Positions 2,135-26,946 of a DNA stretch of 27,232 nt are shown piece after piece. Made by a program: the position numbers and the translations under genes. The stretch lies in IMG/VR virus record IMGVR_UViG_3300045902_000406, positions 1 to 27,232 of that record, one strand, 5' to 3'. The notes beneath the pieces are model-generated. The model did no database searches. It saw only the letters and a program-made list of their open reading frames with translations, and had not been told where the DNA came from. The stretch is from a virus. How positions within the stretch are numbered: the stretch's first letter is position 1; each line of letters starts with the position of its first letter.

Positions 2135-2668
2135 ATGAAAGAACAAATTTTCTCTTTGCTAGCTAATGGAGTCCAACAAAGCGCAGTCGCGGCTGCGGTA
2201 GGAGTTAGTGAAGGATACGTCAGTCAGCTAGCAAATAGTGAAGAGTATCAAGTATTCGCGGCAAAGCGACAAGTAGATCCGCAACTGGAGCAGCATGACA
2301 AGAAAATTGCGGATTTAGAAGAAATTGCGCTCGCAAAAGTTCATAAGTTGATGGAATTTGAAACGAACATCATGCGAGCATTGAAAGTTTTCCAAGTCGC
2401 GAATGCCGCGCATCGTAGAAGTCAACAAGCGCCTACTCCTGACCAAGGAGCAGTTGTCAGTATTACTCTGCCAAAAGCTATGGAGATGCATCTCAAACTC
2501 ACTACTGACAAACAAGTAGTGGAAATCAACGGTAGATCTATGAATACCATGCAAAGTAGAGATGTGAAAGCACGACTGGAAGCAAAAAGACAAGCTACTC
2601 AGCAGCTAGTAACTGATGTTACTCCTGTCATTTCCAAGAAGGTAGTCAACGAGCTGGCAAAATTCTAA
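2135..2668 (+). CDS. Probable terminase small subunit
   Basis: A 177-aa protein that starts three bases after the sigma factor stop, with GGGGG upstream of ATG 2135. Residues about 10-35 form a helix-turn-helix (QQSAVAAAVGVSEGYVSQLA) like the DNA-binding head of small terminases. A helical middle region (QLEQHDKKIADLEEIALAKV) would suit oligomerisation, and the C-terminal part is basic and helical. The stop overlaps the start of the large terminase gene (TAATG), the usual small-large arrangement. By analogy it recognises the packaging site and loads the large subunit. The assignment rests on fold, size and position; a general DNA-binding protein is the alternative. Confidence 0.75.
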   Translation: MKEQIFSLLANGVQQSAVAAAVGVSEGYVSQLANSEEYQVFAAKRQVDPQLEQHDKKIADLEEIALAKVHKLMEFETNIMRALKVFQVANAAHRRSQQAPTPDQGAVVSITLPKAMEMHLKLTTDKQVVEINGRSMNTMQSRDVKARLEAKRQATQQLVTDVTPVISKKVVNELAKF

Positions 2669-4158
2669 TGGAAGAGCTTGACGTAACAGTTGCCAGAGAC
2701 GAAGCAATAGGTCTGGCGAGAGAAAACATGAATTTTCTGGCTGCTGTAGCGGCGCCAGAAGTGTTTCAATTCATGTTTCCGCCGATCTTTCTAGCGATCT
2801 GGCAATTGATTACCAAAGCTGCAATGGAAGCAAAAGGACAAATAAAACTGGCGATAGGTCTACCTCGCGGATTCGCGAAAACCTTCGTCATGAAACTCAT
2901 ATGTTTGTGGATAATTCTATTCACAAACAGGAGATTCATCCTAATCGTATGCAACACAGAACCGCATGCGCAAAACTTCATTGCTGACGTTACCGATCTG
3001 CTTAGCAATTCTAGCATCATAAGAATTTTTGGTGATTGGAGATTATCGAAAGAAATGGATCAGCAGTTGAAGAAGAAATTTTTCTTTCGTGGAAGAGATG
3101 TAATTCTTGCAGGACTTGGTAAAGGCGGATCTCCGCGAGGATTGAATATCAAATATGTGCGTCCTGACGTGATTCTCATGGATGACATGCAATCACGTGA
3201 GGATGCAAAAAGCCCTGTTCAATCGCAGCATGATCTAGAATGGTTCATGGGCACATTGCTAAAAGCAAACGACAAGCTGCGTTGCTTGTTTGTATACGTT
3301 GGCAATATGTATCCATATGAAGGAACCATTCTAAAGAAACTCAAAGAAAATCCCGTTTGGACCACTTTCATCACAGGAGCAATTCTGGAAGATGGAAATT
3401 CTATTTGGCCCGAGCTGCGATCAGTAGAAGATATTCTACAAGAACTTGATGATGACGAGGCAATGGGATGCCCGGAGATTTTTTACTCCGAGGTAATGAA
3501 TGATGATGTTGCAGGCACGCGGGCAGGAGTAGATATTGGAAGAATAAATTGCTGGAAACCAGATCCGGCAAAACCAATTTTTGCTCATGCAGGGTTTGTA
3601 ATCATTGATCCTTCAGCAGGAAAGAAGAAAAGTGACGATGTAGCTATTGGAGCGATTCATGTATATGATGAAGAGCCAGTGCTAACAGAGTTACTTACAG
3701 GAAAATTTAGCCCGGGCGATCAGTGCAGGGAAGCAATTCGATTGTGCATGAAGCACGGATTCGCGGCAATCGTGGTAGAGGATGTTGCGTATCAAGCAAC
3801 TCTCATATATTGGATGGAACAAGTTTTGCAGCAATTGCAAATCCGCGGCATCAAGATCCTTCCAATCAACCCGAACGGTCTGAGCAAAACATATCGAATT
3901 CTGGAAATGTTGAAACAGCTGACTGCCACAAAACATGGCAGCAGAATTCATATAGCTCCAGAAGTTCGTAGCACTGTGGTTCATCAAGTTACCTATTTCG
4001 ATCCGTCAAAAACAAACAACAAAGATGACATCTTGGATATCCTGGCATATTCCAAACAGGTGGTACATCAATACCGCTTCGAAATATCTATCGTTATGGA
4101 TATGCTAGACGATTTCCCCAAGGCAACCTTCTCTGAAGATCTTCAATTGGAGTTCTAA
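2668..4158 (+). CDS. terL: Terminase large subunit (packaging ATPase and nuclease)
   Basis: A 496-aa protein. The ATPase part has a Walker A-like motif GLPRGFAKT (residues 64-72) and Walker B VILMDD (168-173). The C-terminal RNase H-like nuclease has its first acidic residue in FVIIDPSAGKKKSDD (D314), a second acidic site in AIVVEDVAYQATLIYW, and a third in NNKDDILDILAY (about 451-462). All expected catalytic acids are present and length is normal. It pumps DNA into the prohead through the portal and cuts it at the end of packaging. It starts within the stop of the small terminase gene, so the two are probably translationally coupled, and it is followed directly by the portal gene. Confidence 0.95.
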   Translation: MEELDVTVARDEAIGLARENMNFLAAVAAPEVFQFMFPPIFLAIWQLITKAAMEAKGQIKLAIGLPRGFAKTFVMKLICLWIILFTNRRFILIVCNTEPHAQNFIADVTDLLSNSSIIRIFGDWRLSKEMDQQLKKKFFFRGRDVILAGLGKGGSPRGLNIKYVRPDVILMDDMQSREDAKSPVQSQHDLEWFMGTLLKANDKLRCLFVYVGNMYPYEGTILKKLKENPVWTTFITGAILEDGNSIWPELRSVEDILQELDDDEAMGCPEIFYSEVMNDDVAGTRAGVDIGRINCWKPDPAKPIFAHAGFVIIDPSAGKKKSDDVAIGAIHVYDEEPVLTELLTGKFSPGDQCREAIRLCMKHGFAAIVVEDVAYQATLIYWMEQVLQQLQIRGIKILPINPNGLSKTYRILEMLKQLTATKHGSRIHIAPEVRSTVVHQVTYFDPSKTNNKDDILDILAYSKQVVHQYRFEISIVMDMLDDFPKATFSEDLQLEF

Positions 4159-4160
4159 TC

Positions 4161-6020
4161 ATGGCTACCAGCAATCCTGTCGCAGAAATCCGCACGCAAG
4201 CTGCGCTAGTGAATATTGCAAAAGAAATTCTGCAAGCAAACAGGACGGATGATATCCGCAATCATTTGTTGGGCCGCGATCTTTCATACTACCGAGAAGT
4301 TGATAAAACTGCAAATCATCGGCTAGCGCAACATGCAAATCGCATGGGCGATCCTACGAAACAGCAGAATGTGGTAGTTCCGGTAGTTGCTCCGCAAGTA
4401 GAAACCGCGCTAGCGTATCTGACGGAAGTTTTTCTGTCCAGCTATCCAATCTTTCCAGTGGTTTCTCGCCCGCAATTACAAGATGAAGCATTGATGATAG
4501 AAACCCTGTTGGGCGAATCCGCGGTGCATTATCAATGGGTGCGTCATCTTGGAATGGCACTGCGAGATGGATTGAAATACAATCTAATGGGAGTGGAAGT
4601 CGATTGGAGAGAAGAAAAAATTTGGGCTATCGCGAATGATCCACTCGCGAATCTCTCTCAAGGAACTCCTGTGGAGACTGTATTCGCAGGAAACATGATG
4701 AAGCGGATGGATATGTATAACACGTTCTACGATGAACGTATCAATCCAGCAGAAAATCACATCCGCGGAGACTACGTAGGCTATGTCGAGATGCTTACGA
4801 GAATCGAGCTGAAGAAACTATTTCTCAGTCTTGAGAAAACCAACACAATGAACGCTACTGCGGCATTCCAAGCAGGAACCTCCGGTAGCGAGTTCAACTA
4901 TTACTTGCCAGAAATCAATCCAGTTCAGATTGCTCGCGCTCGCGGATCGCTGGAGCTCGGCAACAGCATGAATTGGTTAGCTTGGGCAGGCGAGGAGCGA
5001 GACAGAAAGATCAACTACAGTGGCATGTATGAAGTCGGCTACTTCTACGTGCGGTTGATTCCAAAAGAAATTCATCTATCGGGTGGCGTGCCAAAAATCT
5101 ACAAATTCATTGTAGTGAATGGCAAAGTTCCAATCTACTTCAAACAAATGACGAATGCTCACGATTATCTTCCGATAATCCTTGGGCAGCCGATTGACGA
5201 TGGATATGGATTGCAAACAAAGAGTTTTGCAGACAATTCTACGCCATATCAGCAACTGGCAACTTCGCTCTACAACAGCGGATTGGCAAGTCAACGGAAA
5301 AAAGTATATGACAGGATTTTCTACAATCCTGCAAGGATCAACAAATCGGATATTGATAAAGTAGATCCGATTGCCAGAATCCCAGTAAAAACGGAACAAT
5401 ATGCAGCAGCAATTACTGATGCGTATTCAATTGTTCCATACCGGGATGATGGAGTAGCAAGCATTTTTCAAATTGGTCGAGAAGTGATTGATATGGCGGA
5501 TATCGCTGCCGGGCAAAATAGAGTCCAGCGCGGACAGTTCCAGAAAGGAAACAAGACGCGCTACGAGTTCCAAGAAACTATGATAAACAGCGATTCGCGG
5601 CAGCGGATGATGGCAATCTTTTTGGAATCAAGTTTCTTCCAACCTATCAAACACATCCTCAAATCTAACATTCTTCAATACCAACCGCCGCAGAAAATAT
5701 ACAATCGACAAACCAAAGCAGAAGTAGAAATTGATCCAGTCGCCCTGAGACAAAAAATTTGGGAATTCCAGGTTGCTGATGGCGTATTACCGGCCGCGCA
5801 ATTGGTGAATCTGGAGCTACTCAATTCTGCCATGCAGCTCGCATTTTCTGCTCCGCAAATGGCGCAGGAATGGGATATTATGGGTATGTTTGCATATTCT
5901 ATGAAACTGCAAGGTGCGAAGTGGGTGGATGATTTCCGTAGGCCGCAAGGAGCACTCGCAAATGGAACCCAACAGAACAACGCCACTCCCACTGCTGCGG
6001 CTAACCCCCCTGCAGCGTGA
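4161..6020 (+). CDS. Portal protein
   Basis: A 619-aa protein directly downstream of the large terminase, with TTGGAG upstream of ATG 4161. The N-terminal half has the usual podoviral portal pattern: a helical start, then VVPVVAPQVETALAYLTEVF (about 71-90) and LRDGLKYNLMGVEVDW (about 134-149). A segment around 450-510 (NRVQRGQFQKGNKTRYEFQE and following helices) matches the wing/stem/crown region of portals. The C-terminus is Ala/Pro/Asn-rich and flexible. It forms the ring through which DNA enters and leaves the head. Its last 59 bases overlap the next gene in another frame. The call rests on size, position and general pattern. Confidence 0.88.
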   Translation: MATSNPVAEIRTQAALVNIAKEILQANRTDDIRNHLLGRDLSYYREVDKTANHRLAQHANRMGDPTKQQNVVVPVVAPQVETALAYLTEVFLSSYPIFPVVSRPQLQDEALMIETLLGESAVHYQWVRHLGMALRDGLKYNLMGVEVDWREEKIWAIANDPLANLSQGTPVETVFAGNMMKRMDMYNTFYDERINPAENHIRGDYVGYVEMLTRIELKKLFLSLEKTNTMNATAAFQAGTSGSEFNYYLPEINPVQIARARGSLELGNSMNWLAWAGEERDRKINYSGMYEVGYFYVRLIPKEIHLSGGVPKIYKFIVVNGKVPIYFKQMTNAHDYLPIILGQPIDDGYGLQTKSFADNSTPYQQLATSLYNSGLASQRKKVYDRIFYNPARINKSDIDKVDPIARIPVKTEQYAAAITDAYSIVPYRDDGVASIFQIGREVIDMADIAAGQNRVQRGQFQKGNKTRYEFQETMINSDSRQRMMAIFLESSFFQPIKHILKSNILQYQPPQKIYNRQTKAEVEIDPVALRQKIWEFQVADGVLPAAQLVNLELLNSAMQLAFSAPQMAQEWDIMGMFAYSMKLQGAKWVDDFRRPQGALANGTQQNNATPTAAANPPAA

Positions 6021-7002: not shown

Positions 7003-8208
7003 ATGCCTGTCGCCACCTGGAATACTGCAACTTTTACCCAAGATCTTGCAAAGAAATCTTTTTCTGGCATGATCGTGAAAATTGCCCCGAACGGTCAAGC
7101 GCCTCTTTTTGGCATTACTTCGATGCTGAAAGAAGAAACTGCTTACCAGCCGGAGCACGGGTATTTTGCAAAGCGAATGATCTTCCCGTCGGTTGTGCTG
7201 AACGCAGCAGTCGCGGATGGTGTTGCTACCACGTTCACTGTGGTCAGCACAGAAAACATCGTTCCCGGCATGGTGCTAGAAGCAGATACAACGCGTGAGC
7301 ACGTTCTTGTCACGCAAGTGAACTCTGGAACGCAAATCACTGTACAGCGCGGTTTTGGTACGGTGGCGTCAGGCGCAATCGCGAATACGGTTCGTCTGTA
7401 CATGGTGGGCAATGCTTACGAAGAAGCTTCGGTTCGTCCGCAGTCTCTCGTAATTGTTCCTACTCGCCAGATCAACCTGACGCAAATCTTCCGAAATACT
7501 TGGATGATGAGCGGCACCGCAATGGCTACCAGCGTAATTGCTGGTGGAACCATCGATGCAGAATCTCGCAAGGATTGTGCAATGTTCCATGCGGTGGATA
7601 TTGAAAAAGCGCTGATTTGGGGTCAGACGTTTGCAGGAACTCGCAACAACTTCCCTGTTCGTTGCATGAATGGTCTGATCAATTATGTCACTACGCTGGC
7701 TCCTGGCAATGTGACTACGCTGCTTGCGACTACCAATTGGACTCAATGGGAAGCTGCTATCGATCCGGTTTTCAATGAAATTACCGATGCATCGAAAGCA
7801 AACGAGCGAGTTCACTTCGTTGGCGGTATTGCGCGTCGCGTGATTCACAATATTGCGCGACTGAACAGCGCTTACCAGATTTCCACAATGGAAACCAACT
7901 GGGGCCTGCAGTTCGATCAAATTCGCACCCCTCGCGGTGTTGTGAATCTTGTCGAACATCCGCTGTTCAATGCTTTCCCGGGAGCTTCTTGGAGTCGCAT
8001 GGGACTTACCGTGGATTTGCCAACTTTCTGCCTTGCATACATGACTGGGCGGAAAACGCAAAATCGTGAGTTCAATATGAGCGGTACACCTGTTGATAAC
8101 GGCATTGACGCTGTTGGTGGCACGCTGACCTCGGAACTCACTTGTCTCGTGCGAAATGTGGCCGCAAATGGCGTTTTGTACAACTACACTGCGGGTGCTC
8201 AAGGCTGA
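7003..8208 (+). CDS. Major capsid protein, SU10-type (HK97 fold)
   Basis: A 401-aa protein with AGAGGA upstream of ATG 7003. The segment around residues 185-207 (AESRKDCAMFHAVDIEKALI) and the Thr/Val-rich domain near residues 65-130 match the SU10 major capsid protein family (formerly DUF5309). It has no obvious propeptide, so it probably assembles on the preceding scaffold. All 20 of its Arg codons are CGN, while neighbouring genes freely use AGA/AGG, in keeping with very high expression. A strong terminator follows 15 bases after the stop, which would set a distinct, high transcript level for this gene and those upstream. Confidence 0.92.
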   Translation: MPVATWNTATFTQDLAKKSFSGMIVKIAPNGQAPLFGITSMLKEETAYQPEHGYFAKRMIFPSVVLNAAVADGVATTFTVVSTENIVPGMVLEADTTREHVLVTQVNSGTQITVQRGFGTVASGAIANTVRLYMVGNAYEEASVRPQSLVIVPTRQINLTQIFRNTWMMSGTAMATSVIAGGTIDAESRKDCAMFHAVDIEKALIWGQTFAGTRNNFPVRCMNGLINYVTTLAPGNVTTLLATTNWTQWEAAIDPVFNEITDASKANERVHFVGGIARRVIHNIARLNSAYQISTMETNWGLQFDQIRTPRGVVNLVEHPLFNAFPGASWSRMGLTVDLPTFCLAYMTGRKTQNREFNMSGTPVDNGIDAVGGTLTSELTCLVRNVAANGVLYNYTAGAQG

Positions 8209-9193: not shown

Positions 9194-10804
9194 ATGTCGT
9201 ACACACCGGTTGCGACACAAACTACCGAGCCTGTAATTACCAGACCTGCTGGCAGCGCGGCAGAAGAATTTCGTGTGTTGAAAGCGTATGTAGTAGCAAC
9301 TCGCGCAATCGCGGATGCTCCTACTTGGGCTAGCATTACCGGAAAACCTACTACTCGTGCAGGTTATGGAATCTCTGATGTTCCAACAGTTACTGGCACT
9401 GATGCAACAGGAACTTGGAATATTAGCATTACCGGAAATGCTGCAACTGCGAATAGCGCATCTAGCGCATCTTCCGTTGCCTGGGCCAATATCAGTGGAA
9501 AACCAAACAGTATTGCAGGCTACGGGATCAATGACGCAGTGCCAACTAGCAGAACAATTTCTGCTGGCACAGGTCTTTCTGGTGGTGGCGATCTTACTGC
9601 TAACAGAACAGTATCTCTTGCAAATACTGCAGTAACTCCAGGAAGTTATGGCAGTAGCGGTGCTGTAGCTACGTTCACAGTAGATGCGCAAGGGCGGTTG
9701 ACTGCGGCATCGCAAGTTACTGTCGCGCCTGCTTGGGCAAACATTAGCGGCAAGCCAACGACAATTAGTGGATACGGAATAACGGACGCAGTTCCTGTTG
9801 GCAGAACAATCACTGCAGGAACTGGCTTATCTGGCGGCGGTGATTTATCTGCTAATAGGACGATAAATCTTGCAAATACCGCAGTAACCGCAGGAACGTA
9901 TGGATCAGCTGCGCAAGTTCCTGTTATTACTGTAGATGCGCAAGGCAGAATTACCGCAGCGTCAACAGTTGCTACGTCCATCAATTTTGCGGATATTGGA
10001 GGAAAACCAACTACTGTTGCTGGATATGGTATCACTGATGCAGTTCCTACCGCCAGAACCATTACTGCTGGTACTGGGCTTTCTGGGGGTGGAAACCTCA
10101 CAGCAGATAGAACCATTTCGCTCGCCAATACCACAGTAACTCCAAATAGTTATGGTTCTTCTTCGCAAGCGCTGACTCTGACCATCGACGCGCAAGGAAG
10201 AATTACTGCTGCATCCGCAGCTGCGCAAACTCCTGCATGGGCGAATATTACTGGAAAACCAGACAGTATCGCCGGCTATGGAATTCTTGACGCAGTTCCT
10301 ACCAGCAGGACTATCTCTGCAGGAACTGGATTGACTGGTGGCGGCAATCTTTCAGCAAACAGAACTATCAGTCTCACGGATACCGGAATCACTGCTGGCG
10401 CGTATGGTTCTGCAACAGCTATCCCTGTGATCACTCTGGATGCACAAGGACGAGTAGTTGCGATAGGAACTTCCGCGCCTACTCCTACTTGGAACAGCAT
10501 CACAGGAAAGCCGGATGTTGCTCTCGGGAGGATTCCGAGAGAAACGTCTGATTTGAGTATTGGCGGATGCTACAGCACTACCGCGAATGTGACAGTCACA
10601 ACTTCCCATCTCAGCGTGGGAGCTGCTTACAGCATCTATAACCGTACTGCAGGAAACATAACCATTGTGCAAGGCTCTGGAGTAACTCTCCGTCTTGCTG
10701 GAACTTCTCTTACTGGAAACCGCACGCTGGCACAAAGAGGGCTTGCTACCATTTGGGTAGAAAGCGCATCAGAAGCGATAATTTCTGGCGCAGGAGTTTC
10801 CTGA
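9194..10804 (+). CDS. Tail fibre protein with tandem repeats
   Basis: A 536-aa protein with GGAAGG upstream of ATG 9194. Residues 1-44 are a likely tail-attachment segment. A partial repeat (45-96) is followed by four complete repeats of exactly 84 residues (97-432). Each has an aromatic-A-[ND]-I-x-G-KP motif, GYGI, RTI-AGTGL-GGG-L-A-RT and VDAQGR. The last repeat start at 433 leads into a different beta-rich C-terminus (440-536), probably the receptor-binding tip. Such repeats occur in trimeric phage tail fibres and give fibre length. No chaperone gene or enzymatic spike domain is evident. The stop overlaps the start of the next gene (TGATG). Confidence 0.9.
   Translation: MSYTPVATQTTEPVITRPAGSAAEEFRVLKAYVVATRAIADAPTWASITGKPTTRAGYGISDVPTVTGTDATGTWNISITGNAATANSASSASSVAWANISGKPNSIAGYGINDAVPTSRTISAGTGLSGGGDLTANRTVSLANTAVTPGSYGSSGAVATFTVDAQGRLTAASQVTVAPAWANISGKPTTISGYGITDAVPVGRTITAGTGLSGGGDLSANRTINLANTAVTAGTYGSAAQVPVITVDAQGRITAASTVATSINFADIGGKPTTVAGYGITDAVPTARTITAGTGLSGGGNLTADRTISLANTTVTPNSYGSSSQALTLTIDAQGRITAASAAAQTPAWANITGKPDSIAGYGILDAVPTSRTISAGTGLTGGGNLSANRTISLTDTGITAGAYGSATAIPVITLDAQGRVVAIGTSAPTPTWNSITGKPDVALGRIPRETSDLSIGGCYSTTANVTVTTSHLSVGAAYSIYNRTAGNITIVQGSGVTLRLAGTSLTGNRTLAQRGLATIWVESASEAIISGAGVS
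9482..10489 (+). repeat. Four in-frame 252-bp tandem repeats in the fibre gene
   Basis: Repeat units begin at 9482, 9734, 9986 and 10238, with the first motif of a fifth unit at 10490. Every unit is exactly 252 bases (84 codons) with no insertion or deletion, although the DNA sequences have diverged at many codon positions. Confidence 0.9.
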
Positions 10805-11226
10805 TGGCTGCAATTCAGCAATTGCTGTTTGCCGGAGAACCTCCAGATTTTGTCGAGCTGACTGACAGATATATCTCTGATCTGGTTTTTGTTCCGGATA
10901 CAGCATTTGCTGCAGTTCGCTTTGAGAATGATGGTAAGTTGTACAGGAAACAAGGAACTAATGCAGTAGAAGTTACTGGCGAGTGGGCTACACAAGCTGT
11001 AGCTGGAGCAGATTACGAAGTTCGAGCAGTTCTATCTTCTGGTGACACTCCTTCAGGTCCAGCATTGAATACTTGGCACAGCATTGGAACTTCTAGAGAA
11101 TGGTCGCTGACACGAACACCTATTGGAATCAGAACTTGTGTTCTTGCAATTGAGATACGGTTAGCTGCTACTTCTCAAGTTCAAGGGGCTGCTTCTATCA
11201 CTCTCGAAGCAATTGTTGAAATATGA
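10804..11226 (+). CDS. Hypothetical beta-rich tail-associated protein, 140 aa
   Basis: The frame is open from 10753, but ATG 10804 overlaps the fibre stop (TGATG) and is the likely start by translational coupling. The product starts MAAIQQLLFAGEPPDFVELT and is mostly beta strand, with a closing domain (SGPALNTWHSIGTSREWSLT, IRTCVLAIEIRLAATSQVQG). No catalytic motif is seen. Small beta-rich proteins right after fibre genes are often fibre-tip or tail-attachment proteins in phages, which is the best guess here. No family is recognised with certainty. Confidence 0.75.
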   Translation: MAAIQQLLFAGEPPDFVELTDRYISDLVFVPDTAFAAVRFENDGKLYRKQGTNAVEVTGEWATQAVAGADYEVRAVLSSGDTPSGPALNTWHSIGTSREWSLTRTPIGIRTCVLAIEIRLAATSQVQGAASITLEAIVEI

Positions 11227-11504
11227 TTACCGAGCAAGAAGCAGATATGCTGTCGAGTAAAATTGCTAGAGCTATGGTAACCGAGCTCAGCAAGAATCCG
11301 CAAGTTATTGGACATGCGGTAGATCTTGCAATCGAGAAATTGCAGCATCCAAAAGTTGCGCAGTCAGTCAGCAATGTGTTTGTCGGAGAACTGCACAAAA
11401 AGATCGGTGCATCAGTATTGGGAGCTTTCTGGGTCATTGCTTCGCTAGTTGGGCTGGTAGTGACGCTCAAGTGGAATGCAATCATTGAGTGGTTGAAAGG
11501 ATAA
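11223..11504 (+). CDS. Small membrane protein with one C-terminal span, 93 aa (holin candidate)
   Basis: Starts inside the stop of the previous gene (ATGA overlap). Residues 1-58 are soluble and helical (MITEQEADMLSSKIARAMVT, then HAVDLAIEKLQHPKVAQ). Residues about 61-83 (IGASVLGAFWVIASLVGLVV and TLK) form one hydrophobic span, followed by a short tail ending WLKG. A single span in a small phage protein fits a class III holin or pinholin, or a membrane-anchored virion factor. No endolysin or spanin lies beside it, which weakens the holin idea. It directly precedes the DUF1800 gene with a six-base gap and may act with that pair. Confidence 0.75.
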   Translation: MITEQEADMLSSKIARAMVTELSKNPQVIGHAVDLAIEKLQHPKVAQSVSNVFVGELHKKIGASVLGAFWVIASLVGLVVTLKWNAIIEWLKG

Positions 11505-11510
11505 TTCATC

Positions 11511-13352
11511 ATGTTGGGCAGAAAAAACGATCAAGCGTATGTTGAATGGACGGATCTAGGTCCGGAAATTGTTGATTCTGCTGGCACTCCTGTGATTTCG
11601 GCAGGACAACTTTCAACGTTGCGCGCAGTCGCGGATGACAGGCCGATCAAGAAAGATACAATGCAGTCGCAATACGCGATTGCTGATGACGTGCGATACG
11701 CAGCAGATCGTATTGGCTCGTTGGAAGAAGCAGCGCACTTTCTTCGCCAGTGCACGATGGGGCCAACTTGGCAAGAAATTCAAGATTGTTTCGCGCTGGG
11801 ATCAAGAAAACTTTGGCTTCGTCAACAACTGGCAAAATCGTTGGATAAATCTTTCATTCAACGATTGGTTGATGAAGCAGGAGTTCCGACGAATGATTGG
11901 AGTACCAGCTTTGCAACGCGCCTTCAGTCCCAACAAGCATGGACTACTGCGTTCATCCTAGATTCTGCTCAATTGCGTGTGAAACTGGTCCATGCATTGA
12001 GCAACATTTTCATTGTCTCGGTGCCCGGCGGTGGCATGAATGATTCGTTTGGTTGGCTGACAGTTGGTTGGTTCGATCGTCTCAATAATGGAGCATTTGG
12101 AAATTATCGCACAATTCTTGAAGATGTTACGTACAGTATGCGCATGGCTCGCATGCTGACGTATTACAAGAATCGTCGAGCTGCTCCTGATGGTTCCACA
12201 CAACCTGATGAAAACTACGCAAGAGAAATCATGCAGCTGTTTACCATCGGGCTGTGGGAAATGAATCTGGATGGTACTTACAAGCTAGATGATCGAGGAA
12301 ATCGCATTCCAACATACAATAACGAAGATATTCGACAACTCGCCAGAGTATTTACCGGATTGGTCAGGCCAAATTCTGCCGCCGTCAACTACAATACACA
12401 AAGTCCTGCTAACGATACAGCGTTTAGCGACGAATGGTTCTTTGGTGGTGGTCCTGGTATCAGCGGCGGCGAGAACGGTTGGACTTACGATAATCCGCTA
12501 TTCCGATTGAAGCATTACGTAGGATTCTACGAGTCCGGAGCAAAATTGTGTCTTGGCGGCAGAATTGATATTCCTGCAGGAACTCCTGGTCCACAGAATA
12601 TCACAATGGCATTGGATGGACTTTTTAGTCATCCCAATGTTGCTCCTTTTGTCAGCATTCGCTTGATCCAAGCATTTGTCACTAGCTCTCCTTCTCCTGC
12701 GTATATTGCACGAGTTGCCTCTGTTTTCAATGATAATGGAAACGGGGTCAAAGGAGATATGAAAGCAGTGATGATGGCTATTCTGACAGATCCAGAAGCT
12801 GCCATGCGAGGAGCGATTTTCGAGAAGCATGGAAGAATTCTTACTGGCTTTGAAGCCGCAATCGCGGATGCGCGCAGCTTGGAACGTAGGTTGAGCACTG
12901 GTCGCTGCGGTATGTCTGACGCGGATCTCATTGGTCTTGGTGGCAGGCCATTCTACCAGCCAAGCATCTTTGGTTTCTACGATCCTTTGTACTCTCCTTT
13001 TGCGAATGGTAGACTTCTGCCAGAAGCGCAAATGTATAATACTGTGCAAGTCATCAACACTCTCAATACGATGAGAAACAGAGTGGTCAATGGTGAATTG
13101 CGAGATACTCCAAATTCAACTAATTTAATGACCAGTAATTACTCGATGGTGGATCTTGCAGGCACTTCTGCTGATCTCATTCAACGATTGAATCTTTTGC
13201 TGGCAGGTGGGCAGCTTTCTGCGCAAGCAAAAGCTGATTTTATCACTGTTGCTGCAGTATTCAACTTGGCAACTGACACAGGCCGTCAAGATAGAATGTC
13301 TGTCGCGTTGAATTTCATCGAGCAATCTCCTGAGTTTCGCGTTCAACTGTGA
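11511..13352 (+). CDS. DUF1800 family protein without signal peptide
   Basis: A 613-aa protein carrying the diagnostic DUF1800 motifs in order: FLRQCTMGPTWQEI (77-90), LRVKLVHALSNIFIVS (155-170), PDENYAREIMQLFTIGL (232-248), NNEDIRQLARVFTGL (270-284), and HPNVAPFVSIRLIQAFVT with SPSPAYIARV and MMAILTDPEA (374-430). DUF1800 proteins are known from bacteria as exported proteins of unknown function, usually encoded beside DUF1501. Here no signal peptide is present; instead about 70 N-terminal residues precede the domain and could attach it to the virion. AAAGGA lies upstream of ATG 11511. It sits between the fibre block and the nozzle gene and ends nine bases before the DUF1501 gene, so the two are surely co-expressed. 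Confidence 0.92.
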   Translation: MLGRKNDQAYVEWTDLGPEIVDSAGTPVISAGQLSTLRAVADDRPIKKDTMQSQYAIADDVRYAADRIGSLEEAAHFLRQCTMGPTWQEIQDCFALGSRKLWLRQQLAKSLDKSFIQRLVDEAGVPTNDWSTSFATRLQSQQAWTTAFILDSAQLRVKLVHALSNIFIVSVPGGGMNDSFGWLTVGWFDRLNNGAFGNYRTILEDVTYSMRMARMLTYYKNRRAAPDGSTQPDENYAREIMQLFTIGLWEMNLDGTYKLDDRGNRIPTYNNEDIRQLARVFTGLVRPNSAAVNYNTQSPANDTAFSDEWFFGGGPGISGGENGWTYDNPLFRLKHYVGFYESGAKLCLGGRIDIPAGTPGPQNITMALDGLFSHPNVAPFVSIRLIQAFVTSSPSPAYIARVASVFNDNGNGVKGDMKAVMMAILTDPEAAMRGAIFEKHGRILTGFEAAIADARSLERRLSTGRCGMSDADLIGLGGRPFYQPSIFGFYDPLYSPFANGRLLPEAQMYNTVQVINTLNTMRNRVVNGELRDTPNSTNLMTSNYSMVDLAGTSADLIQRLNLLLAGGQLSAQAKADFITVAAVFNLATDTGRQDRMSVALNFIEQSPEFRVQL

Positions 13353-13361
13353 GAAATTATC

Positions 13362-14705
13362 ATGGCAAAACCAGCAAGCTATACTGATCCTCAAGTAATC
13401 GCGGATATCACGGCAGCAAAAATTGCGTCAGCGGGGAACTTCAAAGCAATTGTTTGCATTTTTCTGTTCGGCGCAAACGATCATTACAATACAGTCATGC
13501 CGTTGTCTGGACCAAACAGACAGCAGTATGATTTCTATCGGTCTAATCAAACCGACGTAGGAATTCCTGTTGGCCAATCTCCGACAAATCACATTGGTTC
13601 TGACTGGCGATTGCATCACAATCTTCCTGCATTGAAAGGTATCTGGGACGCAGGAAAGTTGGGAGTTGTGATGAATGTCGGTATGCTACACGAACCGACA
13701 GATCGAGCAAAGTATCTGGCAAAAAGTGTCAGCTTGCCTGATCAACTGTTTTCGCATAATTCGCAGCAACAGCAATGGCAAACTCTTCCTCCGAGTGGTG
13801 CGTTGACTACTACGCACGGTTGGATGGGGCGAGCAGCAGATTTGGCAGGAGACATTTACAACGATATTTATATCACTCGTCGTACTTCCAGCATGAGCGT
13901 ATCTGGTGTGCAAGCTCAAATGGTTGGGTACGAAGAAATTCCTGCGTATTTGTCTCCGACTGGCGCAGTTGTGTTGAATGAAGTTGGTGCATTTGGCAGC
14001 ACACTGCTGTCAGGTAATTATCAACAAACTCAACGAGGTCGTAGTCCTTGGGACAACATTGTTCAAGGATTTTTTGGTCCTTTGCAGCTAGCAGCAATTG
14101 CTAGTCAATCGGCACTCAATAGTGTGATTTCTGCACTTCCGGCTACTCCGGATGGCCGATTTACTGCAATTCCAAACAATACGCTTGCGCAGCAATTGAA
14201 AACTGTGGCAAGAGTAATTCATTCGCGAGTAGCATTTGAGCATTTTCGTCAGATGTTTTTTGTGAGTCTCGGCGGATTCGACAATCATTCCAATTTGCGA
14301 GCAAATCATGATCCTCTGATGACAACGGTGAATGATGCTATTAATGCATTCTGGCAAGCAATGGGAGATTTGTCTCTCCAGAATGATGTGGTAGTTTTCA
14401 CTGAAAGCGATTTTGGCAGAACTTTGGTCTCGAATGGATCAAATGGTTCGGATCACGGATGGGGCGGGCACCATTTTTTGGTGGGGAATAAAGTCAATGG
14501 AGGTATTTACAATCTTCCATATGACATGACTGTCAATGGTCCGCAAGATTCTGGGCAAGGAAGATCCATTCCAACGCTTTCTGTTGATCAGTATGTTGCA
14601 ACCATTCTCGAATGGTGGGGAATCCCAGCAAAATGGGCGCATCTGGTTGTTCCCAATTTGCGAAATTTCCAGCAAAAAACAATTCCAGGGCTGTTGACCA
14701 TGTAA
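13362..14705 (+). CDS. DUF1501 family protein (alkaline phosphatase-like superfamily), no Tat signal
   Basis: A 447-aa protein with DUF1501 motifs throughout: IFLFGANDHYNTVMP (33-47), NLPALKGIWDAGKLGVVMNV (87-106), SLGGFDNHSNL (302-312), VVFTESDFGRTLVSNGS (344-360) and GSDHGWGGHHFLVG (362-375). The last block holds the Asp and His residues (D364, H365, H370, H371) expected near a metal site in the alkaline phosphatase superfamily. Cellular members usually carry a twin-arginine export signal; here residues 1-27 hold no RR motif and no hydrophobic stretch. The ribosome site is weak, so translation may depend on the DUF1800 gene. Substrate unknown; phosphate or sulfate ester hydrolysis at the cell surface is only a family-based guess. 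Confidence 0.92.
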   Translation: MAKPASYTDPQVIADITAAKIASAGNFKAIVCIFLFGANDHYNTVMPLSGPNRQQYDFYRSNQTDVGIPVGQSPTNHIGSDWRLHHNLPALKGIWDAGKLGVVMNVGMLHEPTDRAKYLAKSVSLPDQLFSHNSQQQQWQTLPPSGALTTTHGWMGRAADLAGDIYNDIYITRRTSSMSVSGVQAQMVGYEEIPAYLSPTGAVVLNEVGAFGSTLLSGNYQQTQRGRSPWDNIVQGFFGPLQLAAIASQSALNSVISALPATPDGRFTAIPNNTLAQQLKTVARVIHSRVAFEHFRQMFFVSLGGFDNHSNLRANHDPLMTTVNDAINAFWQAMGDLSLQNDVVVFTESDFGRTLVSNGSNGSDHGWGGHHFLVGNKVNGGIYNLPYDMTVNGPQDSGQGRSIPTLSVDQYVATILEWWGIPAKWAHLVVPNLRNFQQKTIPGLLTM

Positions 14706-14709
14706 TGCC

Positions 14710-16347
14710 ATGGCATCTTTGACTTTCAAATTGGTATTGAACTCTGCCAACTTTCCGTTTCTCTACGATGCGGCTGGTAGAGGTGTGCTGATGCCAGAGT
14801 TGGATATCAGTAACAGAATGCCTGGAGGTTTTTCTGGTGGACGCGAAAGTCAAGATTTCAACACCATTCAGCCGTTGTATCTAGAAAACATCCTGCCGGC
14901 AGCAGAAGGATTGTTGTCGGTAGGAATCGCGCCAGAAATTCCTGCAATATCTCCTGCACAAACGGATTTTGATAAGCTTATCATTATCCGTGATGCGCAA
15001 GAAAATATTTTTCTTTTTTCTCCTGCTAGAGGAAAGAATTACGTATACGATGCAACGGCAAATACCTGGGTCAGCAGAAATCCTTTTACTTTTCTTAGTG
15101 GCTTGTCTCTTGTAACTCACGCATATGTAAACGGTGTAACATACATCTTTTACGAAGCTACTAAGGGAATTACTTGGAATGTAACATTGTCTCAATTTGA
15201 TAATGTTACATTTACCTGGCCTACAGGATACACAACTGCTGATATCCGCGGCATTTGTCCAGCTAGCAACTATCTGATTGCTCATACAGAAACAGAGATC
15301 CTGTGGAGCAGTTTGACAAATAATACAAACTTTGCAGATTTGATTGGTGGAGCAGGAAGGCAAACACCAGTAGATCTGCGAGGAAGAATTACTTGTTGCT
15401 TGCCAATTGCTGGTGGTTTCATCATCTACACGCTGAGAAATGCAGTAGCTGCATATTTCACCAACAATCCGGCTGCTCCGTTCTTGTTCAAAGAAATTCC
15501 TAAAGCAGGTGGAGTTGCTGGTCCAGAGCAAGTAAGCTACGAAGCAAACAATACGCATCATTATACCATTGGTGCGTCAGGAATCCAACGAGTAGCGTTA
15601 GACGCAGCAGATACGTATCTGCCCGCAGCCGCGGATTTTCTAAAAGCAAAAGCGTACAATTTGTGGAATGATATTACCGACGAGATTGAACTAATCAAAT
15701 CGGTTCAAGCATTCGCCGCAAAGATTCAATATGTTCAAAGCAGGTATTTGATCATTTCCTTTGCTCCAGATAACGATGGTCATTTCCAGCTTGCTTTGTT
15801 TTACGATGAAGTATTGGATCGTTGGGGCAGAGTTCGTGAGTTGCACGCAGACGCATTTTCTCTGCCAGTAGAACTTGGATTGTCCTATTACACCTATGCA
15901 GCGTTGATGAATGCTAGCTACCAAGATCTGGGAGTGTCTACCTACTTGGAGCTAAATAGTACTGTAACTACCGCGTCTTTGCTGCAAACATCTATCGGAT
16001 TTCTCAAAAAATCCGGAGAGATTACTTTACTAATCACTGATCCTTCTGCGCTAGTATCTGAAGGTATTGCAGTGATAGGGCATATCCAGCTCCGCAGAAG
16101 TCGGAATGTTACAGTAACAGAAGTAGAAGCAGATTTCACGCTAACGGATGATCCTCCGGATGCATTTCTTCTTGTCTCAGAAGATGGCAAGAATCGACAA
16201 GCCGCGATTCCGATGTATAAAATTGGAGACCAAAATACTGCGGTATATCAGTCTAGAATAACTGGGAAGAATATTGATCTGATGTTTCGTGGTAGATTTT
16301 TGCTGACTTCTGCAATAGTGACGGCGGTGATGCATGGCAAGCGGTAA
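14710..16347 (+). CDS. Tail nozzle-like protein (T7 gp12 / tail tubular protein B role)
   Basis: A 545-aa protein that is nearly all beta. The N-terminus (PGGFSGGRESQDFNTIQPLY, about 38-57) and the blade-like repeats that follow (LIIIRDAQENIFLFSPARGK, YLIAHTETEILWSS, HYTIGASGIQRVALDAADTY) suggest a beta-propeller as in podoviral nozzle proteins. A beta-sandwich-like C-terminus follows. It is shorter than T7 gp12 (794 aa). The start has no strong ribosome site; ATG 14710 lies four bases after the previous stop, pointing to coupling. It probably forms the distal tube below the adaptor ring. A tail needle or other stalk protein is the alternative. Confidence 0.65.
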   Translation: MASLTFKLVLNSANFPFLYDAAGRGVLMPELDISNRMPGGFSGGRESQDFNTIQPLYLENILPAAEGLLSVGIAPEIPAISPAQTDFDKLIIIRDAQENIFLFSPARGKNYVYDATANTWVSRNPFTFLSGLSLVTHAYVNGVTYIFYEATKGITWNVTLSQFDNVTFTWPTGYTTADIRGICPASNYLIAHTETEILWSSLTNNTNFADLIGGAGRQTPVDLRGRITCCLPIAGGFIIYTLRNAVAAYFTNNPAAPFLFKEIPKAGGVAGPEQVSYEANNTHHYTIGASGIQRVALDAADTYLPAAADFLKAKAYNLWNDITDEIELIKSVQAFAAKIQYVQSRYLIISFAPDNDGHFQLALFYDEVLDRWGRVRELHADAFSLPVELGLSYYTYAALMNASYQDLGVSTYLELNSTVTTASLLQTSIGFLKKSGEITLLITDPSALVSEGIAVIGHIQLRRSRNVTVTEVEADFTLTDDPPDAFLLVSEDGKNRQAAIPMYKIGDQNTAVYQSRITGKNIDLMFRGRFLLTSAIVTAVMHGKR

Positions 16348-26298: not shown

Positions 26299-26509
26299 AG
26301 CCTTCAGAAAAAACTTTTTCTAGCGTTTGATCTAGCTTTTGTGTAATGGAATCGAGCAGAAGCAGTTCCTTGTTCAGCTCTTCCCAAAGAGAGCTAGACT
26401 GTATCACTTTGAAATTGAAGTATCTCTGAGCTGCTTGGGTATCGCGAAGAGTCGATTTGACAAGTCTGTACAGCAACCATGCTTCACTATCGGTTAGAGT
26501 GATTCTCAT
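26246..26509 (-). CDS. Hypothetical helical protein, 87 aa
   Basis: The start at 26509 has AGGAG nine bases upstream and overlaps the stop of the MazG-like gene (ATGA). The product is helical (MRITLTDSEAWLLYRLVKST; EELNKELLLLDSITQKLDQT) with a Pro-rich tail. No family is recognised. It is the last gene of the minus-strand operon and ends inside the 3' end of the giant plus-strand gene, so the two coding regions overlap by 53 bases tail to tail. The good ribosome site and helix pattern argue that it is real. Confidence 0.75.
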   Translation of the reverse strand: MRITLTDSEAWLLYRLVKSTLRDTQAAQRYFNFKVIQSSSLWEELNKELLLLDSITQKLDQTLEKVFSEGFTVQEQVVINPPKDPLP

Positions 26510-26946
26510 TGCTCTTTCTCCTGCTTGTCTACTTTCATCATTCTGTCAATGATGACTCTGCCAATATCCGGCGGTTTCCATCCTTCTGGTTTTAGCACCT
26601 TACCGTCGCTGCGAAAGTGGACTTTGCCATCAGCACCGCGCTTGCGCATGTTTGCTGCATGAACTTCGTTCCATGCTTCCTCGAACGGAAAACCCATTGC
26701 GTGGCAAAAATCGAGAAAAACATAGATAGAATCCACGCAAGCATCCAGTAGATCTGCTGCTGTATAGACTTCTGGAAACACGCGGAACGCAACAAGCGCT
26801 TCTTCAAACTCTCTTTGCGCTTCTTCGCGAATAAGATCTACTTGCTGATCAAATTCGTTCGCAGGAATCTTTTCAAACGGCCGCTCTCGTAGCGGCTTTC
26901 CCATTGCTTTGCGAAATTCGCCAACTTGTTGGAAATAGGTGCTCAT
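26506..26946 (-). CDS. MazG-like nucleotide pyrophosphohydrolase (all-alpha NTP-PPase superfamily)
   Basis: A 146-aa protein with AGGAAAGG upstream of its ATG at 26946. It has the superfamily signature: IREEAQREFEEAL (about 39-51, EExxxE metal ligands E42/E46), LLDACVDSIYVFLDF (66-80, D68 and D72) and the helix EAWNEVHAANMRKRGADGK (90-108) with the conserved Asn residues. These enzymes cut NTPs or dNTPs to the monophosphate and pyrophosphate using magnesium. In phages they may clean or adjust nucleotide pools or lower (p)ppGpp-type signals. It overlaps both neighbours by four bases, so three minus-strand genes form one operon, probably expressed early. Confidence 0.85.
   Translation of the reverse strand: MSTYFQQVGEFRKAMGKPLRERPFEKIPANEFDQQVDLIREEAQREFEEALVAFRVFPEVYTAADLLDACVDSIYVFLDFCHAMGFPFEEAWNEVHAANMRKRGADGKVHFRSDGKVLKPEGWKPPDIGRVIIDRMMKVDKQEKEQ

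Follow-up and report, generated by a model that had tools for sequence, protein, structure and literature searches.

In the 27,232-bp IMG/VR virus record IMGVR_UViG_3300045902_000406, analysed over its complete length (the window), two adjacent genes encode proteins of the DUF1800 and DUF1501 families. We think it somewhat probable that the pair constitutes a virion tail module in a receptor slot, of which the DUF1501 protein would be an enzyme acting on phospho- or sulfo-esters of the host surface and the DUF1800 protein its anchor or partner. The two open reading frames are located on one strand, separated by a gap of 9 bp:

11511..13352, plus strand: DUF1800 protein of 613 aa, with the domain extending from about residue 74 to residue 613 (Pfam); mostly helical in its AlphaFold2 model
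11511..11729, plus strand: N-terminal segment of about 73 aa of the DUF1800 protein, without signal peptide or lipobox (alignment A2, export-signal scan)
13362..14705, plus strand: DUF1501 protein of 447 aa, with a predicted alkaline-phosphatase-superfamily fold (Pfam, AlphaFold2 model, VIA)
13362..13433, plus strand: phage-type N-terminal segment (MAKPASY...) of the DUF1501 protein, replacing the bacterial twin-arginine (Tat) signal (alignment, pattern count)

A full-length DUF1800–DUF1501 pair in this order had been claimed by a first-pass annotation, and the profile check bore this out. The Pfam scan yielded PF08811 (DUF1800) with an E value of 3.3e-61 (208 bits against a cut-off of 26.1) over profile positions 1–418 of 419, and PF07394 (DUF1501) with an E value of 2.2e-29 (103 bits against a cut-off of 27), the latter match split in two stretches; a profile built in this analysis covers DUF1501 residues 4–447. 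Both matches are far above chance. DUF1800 lies directly 5′ of DUF1501 in the window, as it does at 82 of 84 bacterial and 16 of 19 untruncated viral loci. PHROGs, NCBIfam and PADLOC provided no family for either protein, the defence library no match for the pair, and a sequence-profile search of solved structures no relative of either. The GC content is level throughout the region, the junctions between genes are tight and the spacing of 4–9 bp is operon-like; since the surrounding genes are, moreover, phage structural genes, a misassembled bacterial insertion is unlikely.

Absence of export signals and added domains

The first-pass annotation had likened the pair to its exported bacterial counterparts; the resemblance holds for adjacency and order, but the window proteins lack the export signals. 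We compared 84 bacterial DUF1501s with an intact start with 19 viral ones. A Tat motif precedes the domain in all 84 bacterial proteins, whereas the pattern occurs in three of the 19 viral proteins (Fisher p 4e-16, with related rows counted singly), those of the loci L026, L027 and L041. In the first two, the "RR" is not an N-terminal Tat signal, while L041 belongs to the bacterial type and lies on a contig of 322 kb. Conversely, a phage-type start, M-x-P-x-Y (M, 1–5 residues, P, 1–2 residues, then Y, F or W), is present in 13 of the 19 viral and four of the 84 bacterial sequences. Most bacterial DUF1800s carry a signal peptide or lipobox; by a simple hydropathy and pattern scan, none of the phage DUF1800s does.

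Some of the viral relatives have acquired additional parts. The N-terminus of the L127 DUF1800 matches the PHROGs family "baseplate wedge tail fiber protein connector" (phrog_677, E 5e-5) and has a weak match to a family of tail fibres as well; that of L028 consists of cadherin/Big and DUF4082 domains. The L021 DUF1501 (L021:4976-6907) is extended by a C-terminal part of about 640 aa, for which there was no Pfam match, and long inserts occur in L045, L037, L036 and L032, those of L045 being repeated. These inserts, fusions and N-terminal domains would be the additions of a virion surface protein. As the inserts were not found in other proteins of the same phages, it is their appearance that suggests a tail origin.

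The pair in other viral contigs

Searches of viral and genome collections with the single proteins found nothing, because the nearest homologues are less than 46% identical and profile queries are needed. With profiles made from bacterial homologues on plasmids, we detected about 18 further IMG/VR viral contigs with the pair or, where a contig ended, with one of its members; later scans gave nearly the same set, and the figure is close to the reach of the method rather than the true number. The single case implied by the first-pass annotation is thus one of many, and in 12 of the other contigs virion or packaging genes, among them that for the terminase large subunit (TerL), lie beside the pair:

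L021: TerL, portal
L039: TerL
L026: TerL, portal
L036: TerL
L037: portal, internal virion protein
L033 and L027: internal virion protein
L025: major head, minor tail
L031: minor head, minor tail
L045: virion structural
L127/L128: baseplate wedge, TerL
L132: tail fibre, LamG

The TerL types and structural genes differ amongst these contigs, and L127/L128 include a baseplate wedge gene; the carriers are, therefore, mutually unrelated phages with at least two types of tail. A structure search also reached A0A6J5M742, a "DUF1501 domain-containing protein" of an uncultured Caudovirales phage in BFVD (Foldseek E 8e-21, 20% identity), which likewise places a DUF1501 in a tailed phage but is a database record only.

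Two further candidates were rejected. The sole match in the named-phage collection, MT837425 (L012, MT837425.1, "Bacteriophage sp."), was considered bacterial: its DUF1501 has a Tat signal (SRRGFLGG) and the sequence is GC-rich. The DUF1501 listed in the literature for Pseudomonas phage ZC03 is a weak match on an unrelated 61-aa protein.

The 322-kb record IMGVR_UViG_3300037882_003354 harbours two pairs some 30 kb apart, the bacterial-type L041 with Tat signal and the phage-type L045 without; the contig may be bacterial and contain a prophage. L030 (IMGVR_UViG_2645728088_000002) seemingly derives from an isolate genome; its pair lacks export signals and clusters with Vibrio-type sequences, and the host of this record could provide a culturable system. 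A synonymous/nonsynonymous comparison of L127 with L128 gave no information, the two being near-identical, and the alignment restricted to phage DUF1501s was too divergent for a pattern scan.

Evolutionary relations of the phage pairs

In the DUF1800 tree, 13 phage sequences lie on one side of a branch (Shimodaira–Hasegawa-like approximate likelihood ratio test, SH-aLRT, 97.7), opposite 38 others, namely 35 bacterial ones and L041, L030 and L031 from viral contigs. The phage DUF1800 lineage appears to be old, because the 13 phage proteins are separated from the 35 bacterial homologues by this supported branch. In the DUF1501 tree, the window protein groups with L021, L039, L024 and L028 (96), and a second phage group comprises L026, L027, L045, L033 and L032 (99). 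The window stays with L021 and L039, and L026 with L027, in both trees, which implies that DUF1800 and DUF1501 have travelled together. L030, L031 and L041, which fall among the bacterial sequences, may have been taken up independently or may themselves be bacterial DNA. The trees are unrooted as to the direction of transfer; a bacterial origin of the pair is the more parsimonious view, given the far greater size of the bacterial set.

An inserted block between fibre and nozzle genes

The pair resides among the structural genes of the carrier phage, of which the window is a podoviral fragment:

2668..4158, plus strand: TerL (phrog_38, E 1.7e-48)
4161..6020, plus strand: portal protein, SU10-type (phrog_15554, E 1.3e-66)
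7003..8208, plus strand: major capsid protein, SU10 type (PF17236, E 1.1e-33)
9194..10804, plus strand: repetitive tail fibre-type protein (PHROGs tail fibre and head decoration matches; N-terminus common to fibres of relatives)
10798..11226, plus strand: 142-aa protein, first gene of the inserted block (open reading frame; no convincing family)
11223..11504, plus strand: 93-aa protein with one C-terminal transmembrane stretch (hydropathy), directly upstream of DUF1800
14710..16347, plus strand: nozzle-like virion structural protein (phrog_16563, E 0.0012, weak; homologues in L004–L007 and L009, 25–32%)

The portal and capsid proteins are about 30–37% identical to those of Polaromonas phage Tiera, Aeromonas phage P5, EBPR podovirus 3 (EBPR3) and the P. 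aeruginosa PaP2/PaMx41 group; with TerL included, identities to Tiera, P5, PaMx43 and EBPR3 are about 29–38%, and the gene order is common to all. Tiera is a podovirus with a short tail by electron microscopy (PMC9959647). With the group of PaP2, PaMx41, Tiera and EBPR3 (Fredfastierviridae and kin), the window thus has in common TerL, portal, major capsid protein, a large protein of 1638 aa and the gene order. It differs by the pair, which was not found in the four members tested (Tiera, P5, EBPR3 and PaMx43), where other genes lie between the major capsid and nozzle genes, or in six IMG/VR relatives (several of them fragmentary).

In the relatives L004, L006 and L007, whose fibres have an N-terminal sequence in common with the window fibre, the nozzle gene directly follows the fibre gene (gaps of 0 to 18 bp). 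The assignment of the nozzle-like gene draws on its homologues at the same place in relatives, beside the weak PHROGs match. Fibre and nozzle are separated by four genes in the window (142 aa, 93 aa, DUF1800 and DUF1501). The first-pass annotation had placed the pair between the two, which is correct, except that two small genes intervene between the fibre gene and DUF1800. In or near the same region, Tiera has a LamG protein and P5 a weak match to an S74 endosialidase chaperone, and a Gp38-type adhesin immediately follows the nozzle in L007. From the fibre–nozzle adjacency in relatives and the other genes found there, we conclude that the pair was inserted as a block into a variable region, occupied in several relatives by receptor-related genes. 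L039 has a 96-aa protein of the same layout at the same spot as the 93-aa protein of the window; homology of the two is not proven by their weak alignment (24% identity, E 0.09).

Predicted structures and a conserved D/H motif

The AlphaFold2 model of the DUF1501 protein is good, with a predicted local distance difference test score (pLDDT) of 89.1 and a predicted template modelling score (pTM) of 0.90. Its best VIA-align match is a phosphodiesterase of the nucleotide pyrophosphatase/phosphodiesterase (NPP) type (Z 17.9, root-mean-square deviation 3.6, 249 aligned residues), alongside PafA (Z 17.4), choline sulfatase (17.2), EptA (16.2) and MCR-1 (15.9); Foldseek leads to the same superfamily (E 3e-6). 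By this predicted fold, DUF1501 belongs to the alkaline-phosphatase superfamily, the characteristic D/H motif of which (D40, D307, H309, D364, H365) is present and conserved by sequence. We counted conservation over 16 viral and 84 bacterial DUF1501 sequences:

13479..13481, plus strand: D40, which follows the first core strand and is the first of the predicted metal ligands (Asp in 14/16 viral and 84/84 bacterial sequences)
13752..13757, plus strand: S131-H132 at a helix start, S131 at the usual nucleophile position (alignment, model)
14280..14288, plus strand: D307-x-H309, predicted metal ligands (invariant in all 100)
14451..14456, plus strand: D364-H365, predicted metal ligands (16/16 viral and 83/84 bacterial sequences, the remaining one having a gap)

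S131 is found in 12/16 viral and 81/84 bacterial sequences and H132 in all of them, and F351, R353 and N358 are likewise invariant. The window protein is intact at every one of these positions, from D40 to H365. The likeness to the superfamily (NPP phosphodiesterases, choline sulfatase, PafA, EptA/MCR, LtaS) consists of the fold, at Z scores of about 16–18, the D after the first strand, the D-x-H and the D-H; the differences are a sequence identity of only about 8–13% and a nucleophile position that is not strictly conserved in DUF1501.

The DUF1800 model is fair (pLDDT 80, pTM 0.84), mostly helical and confident over most of the domain.

Possible functions of the pair

A tail module with an enzymatic DUF1501 would operate as follows. 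Both proteins, made without export signals, would fold in the cytoplasm and be built, presumably as a complex, into the virion beside the tail fibre and the nozzle, with the DUF1800 N-terminus as anchor or scaffold. DUF1501 would be a metal-dependent enzyme that cleaves or edits phosphate- or sulfate-esters of a host surface polymer at adsorption, a role parallel to that of other tail-associated enzymes. The interpretation given in the first-pass annotation is partly supported. For the recruitment of a cellular surface module as a tail component, which it had proposed, good though indirect support comes from the lost export signals, the phage-only branch, the recurrent tail or packaging placement in unrelated phages, the tail-type fusions and insertions and a fibre–nozzle cassette that close relatives lack. 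The action on host surface polymers that the annotation also suggested is narrowed by the modelled fold to ester chemistry of this superfamily, the activity being a predicted one.

Several observations weigh against this reading. The window pair has no recognisable fused tail domain, and neither a true member nor a cultured phage with the pair was found in the named-phage collection. The DUF1800 model was without a match in the PDB (best Foldseek E 0.29, best VIA Z 3.0), which is not proof of a new fold, and because no fold relative was found, the role of DUF1800 is a guess. Moreover, amongst the 16 viral DUF1501s, the putative nucleophile S131 is replaced by Ala in three and Asn in one, and D40 by Cys in two (L026 and L027); on account of these replacements, activity is possibly not universal. 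The same losses would suit a tail component without catalysis, whose fold only binds a phosphorylated or sulfated receptor, as would the tail position and the domain inserts, which befit a receptor-binding protein. We consider such a binder unlikely, since none of the 16 viral sequences has lost D307, H309, D364 or H365 and the window copy is intact throughout.

A late enzyme outside the virion, which would work inside the infected cell or on the envelope at about the time of lysis, or have nucleotides or signalling molecules as its substrates, seems to us more doubtful still. The adjoining 93-aa protein with its one transmembrane stretch could be holin-like, a lysis cassette occupies part of the corresponding region in PaMx43 (a further point against a receptor slot), and nucleotide phosphodiesterases such as ENPP1 are among the structural neighbours of DUF1501. 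However, an export signal for reaching the envelope is absent, which makes the envelope modification before lysis entertained by the first-pass annotation less likely; relatives have tail-type domains fused or inserted, the fibre/TerL/baseplate neighbourhood recurs and the defence library was without a match. Finally, the pair could be cellular cargo, whether a bacterial operon that a single phage carries as a passenger, a chimera from assembly or contaminating bacterial DNA. Both families are overwhelmingly bacterial, and the sole named-phage match looks bacterial, Tat signal included. This is nevertheless very improbable, given the operon spacing and even GC content of the window, the same pair in many unrelated phage contigs and the loss of export signals, and it is largely contradicted by the phage-only branch.

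A bolder form of the enzymatic tail module, which we put forward tentatively, makes the two-protein module ancient and distributed across podo- and myovirus-like phages. Its scaffold would be a helical DUF1800 with a new fold, carrying an alkaline-phosphatase-type DUF1501 whose targets on the host surface would be phosphate, phosphoethanolamine or sulfate groups, either removed or transferred. On this view, the exported bacterial pair would be the surface-editing system from which the module derives, or its counterpart, and the phage module would be a handle on the function of both DUFs.

Related systems and significance

The bacterial DUF1800–DUF1501 operon (PF08811 and PF07394; e.g., on Agarilytica plasmid pSU2 and in Sphingomonas parapaucimobilis) is common, with hundreds of matches in one pattern scan. 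It resembles the phage pair in families, order, close spacing and motifs, with about 30–39% identity to the window proteins. It differs by the Tat signal on DUF1501 and, mostly, a signal peptide or lipobox on DUF1800; the phage versions lack both, have the phage-type N-terminus and occur in tail gene blocks. An association of the bacterial pair with chitin synthase operons has been published, without a function being assigned to it (PMC5122149). In the literature that we found, no function is given for the pair and it is not described in phages; DUF1501 in phages is already present in databases (BFVD), while an account of the module was not found.

The type of function has a precedent, because glycerophosphodiester phosphodiesterases of another family are predicted in tail modules of enterococcal phages (PMC10194240). 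With these and with tailspike depolymerases, the pair has in common an enzyme-fold protein in a tail module and a presumed surface-polymer target; the enzyme family and fold are different, and here there are two proteins, DUF1800 being the regular partner. The module would be classed as a tail-associated enzyme built from families not described in that role, possibly a new enzyme class for phage tails from the superfamily of phosphodiesterases, sulfatases and phosphoethanolamine transferases. That phages carry the pair repeatedly, in versions stripped of export signals and fitted with tail-type parts, suggests that it works at the cell surface, and provides a tractable system for testing this. 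Such a tail enzyme could reveal surface chemistry that phages must edit for entry.

Elsewhere in the window, a sigma-factor-like protein is encoded directly upstream of the terminase genes (1397-2131; phrog_351, E 8e-31). An opposite-strand block includes a gene for a MazG-like nucleotide pyrophosphohydrolase (26506-26946, minus strand; phrog_671, E 7.5e-30); a comparable position is taken by a phosphohydrolase or MazG gene in Tiera and PaMx43.

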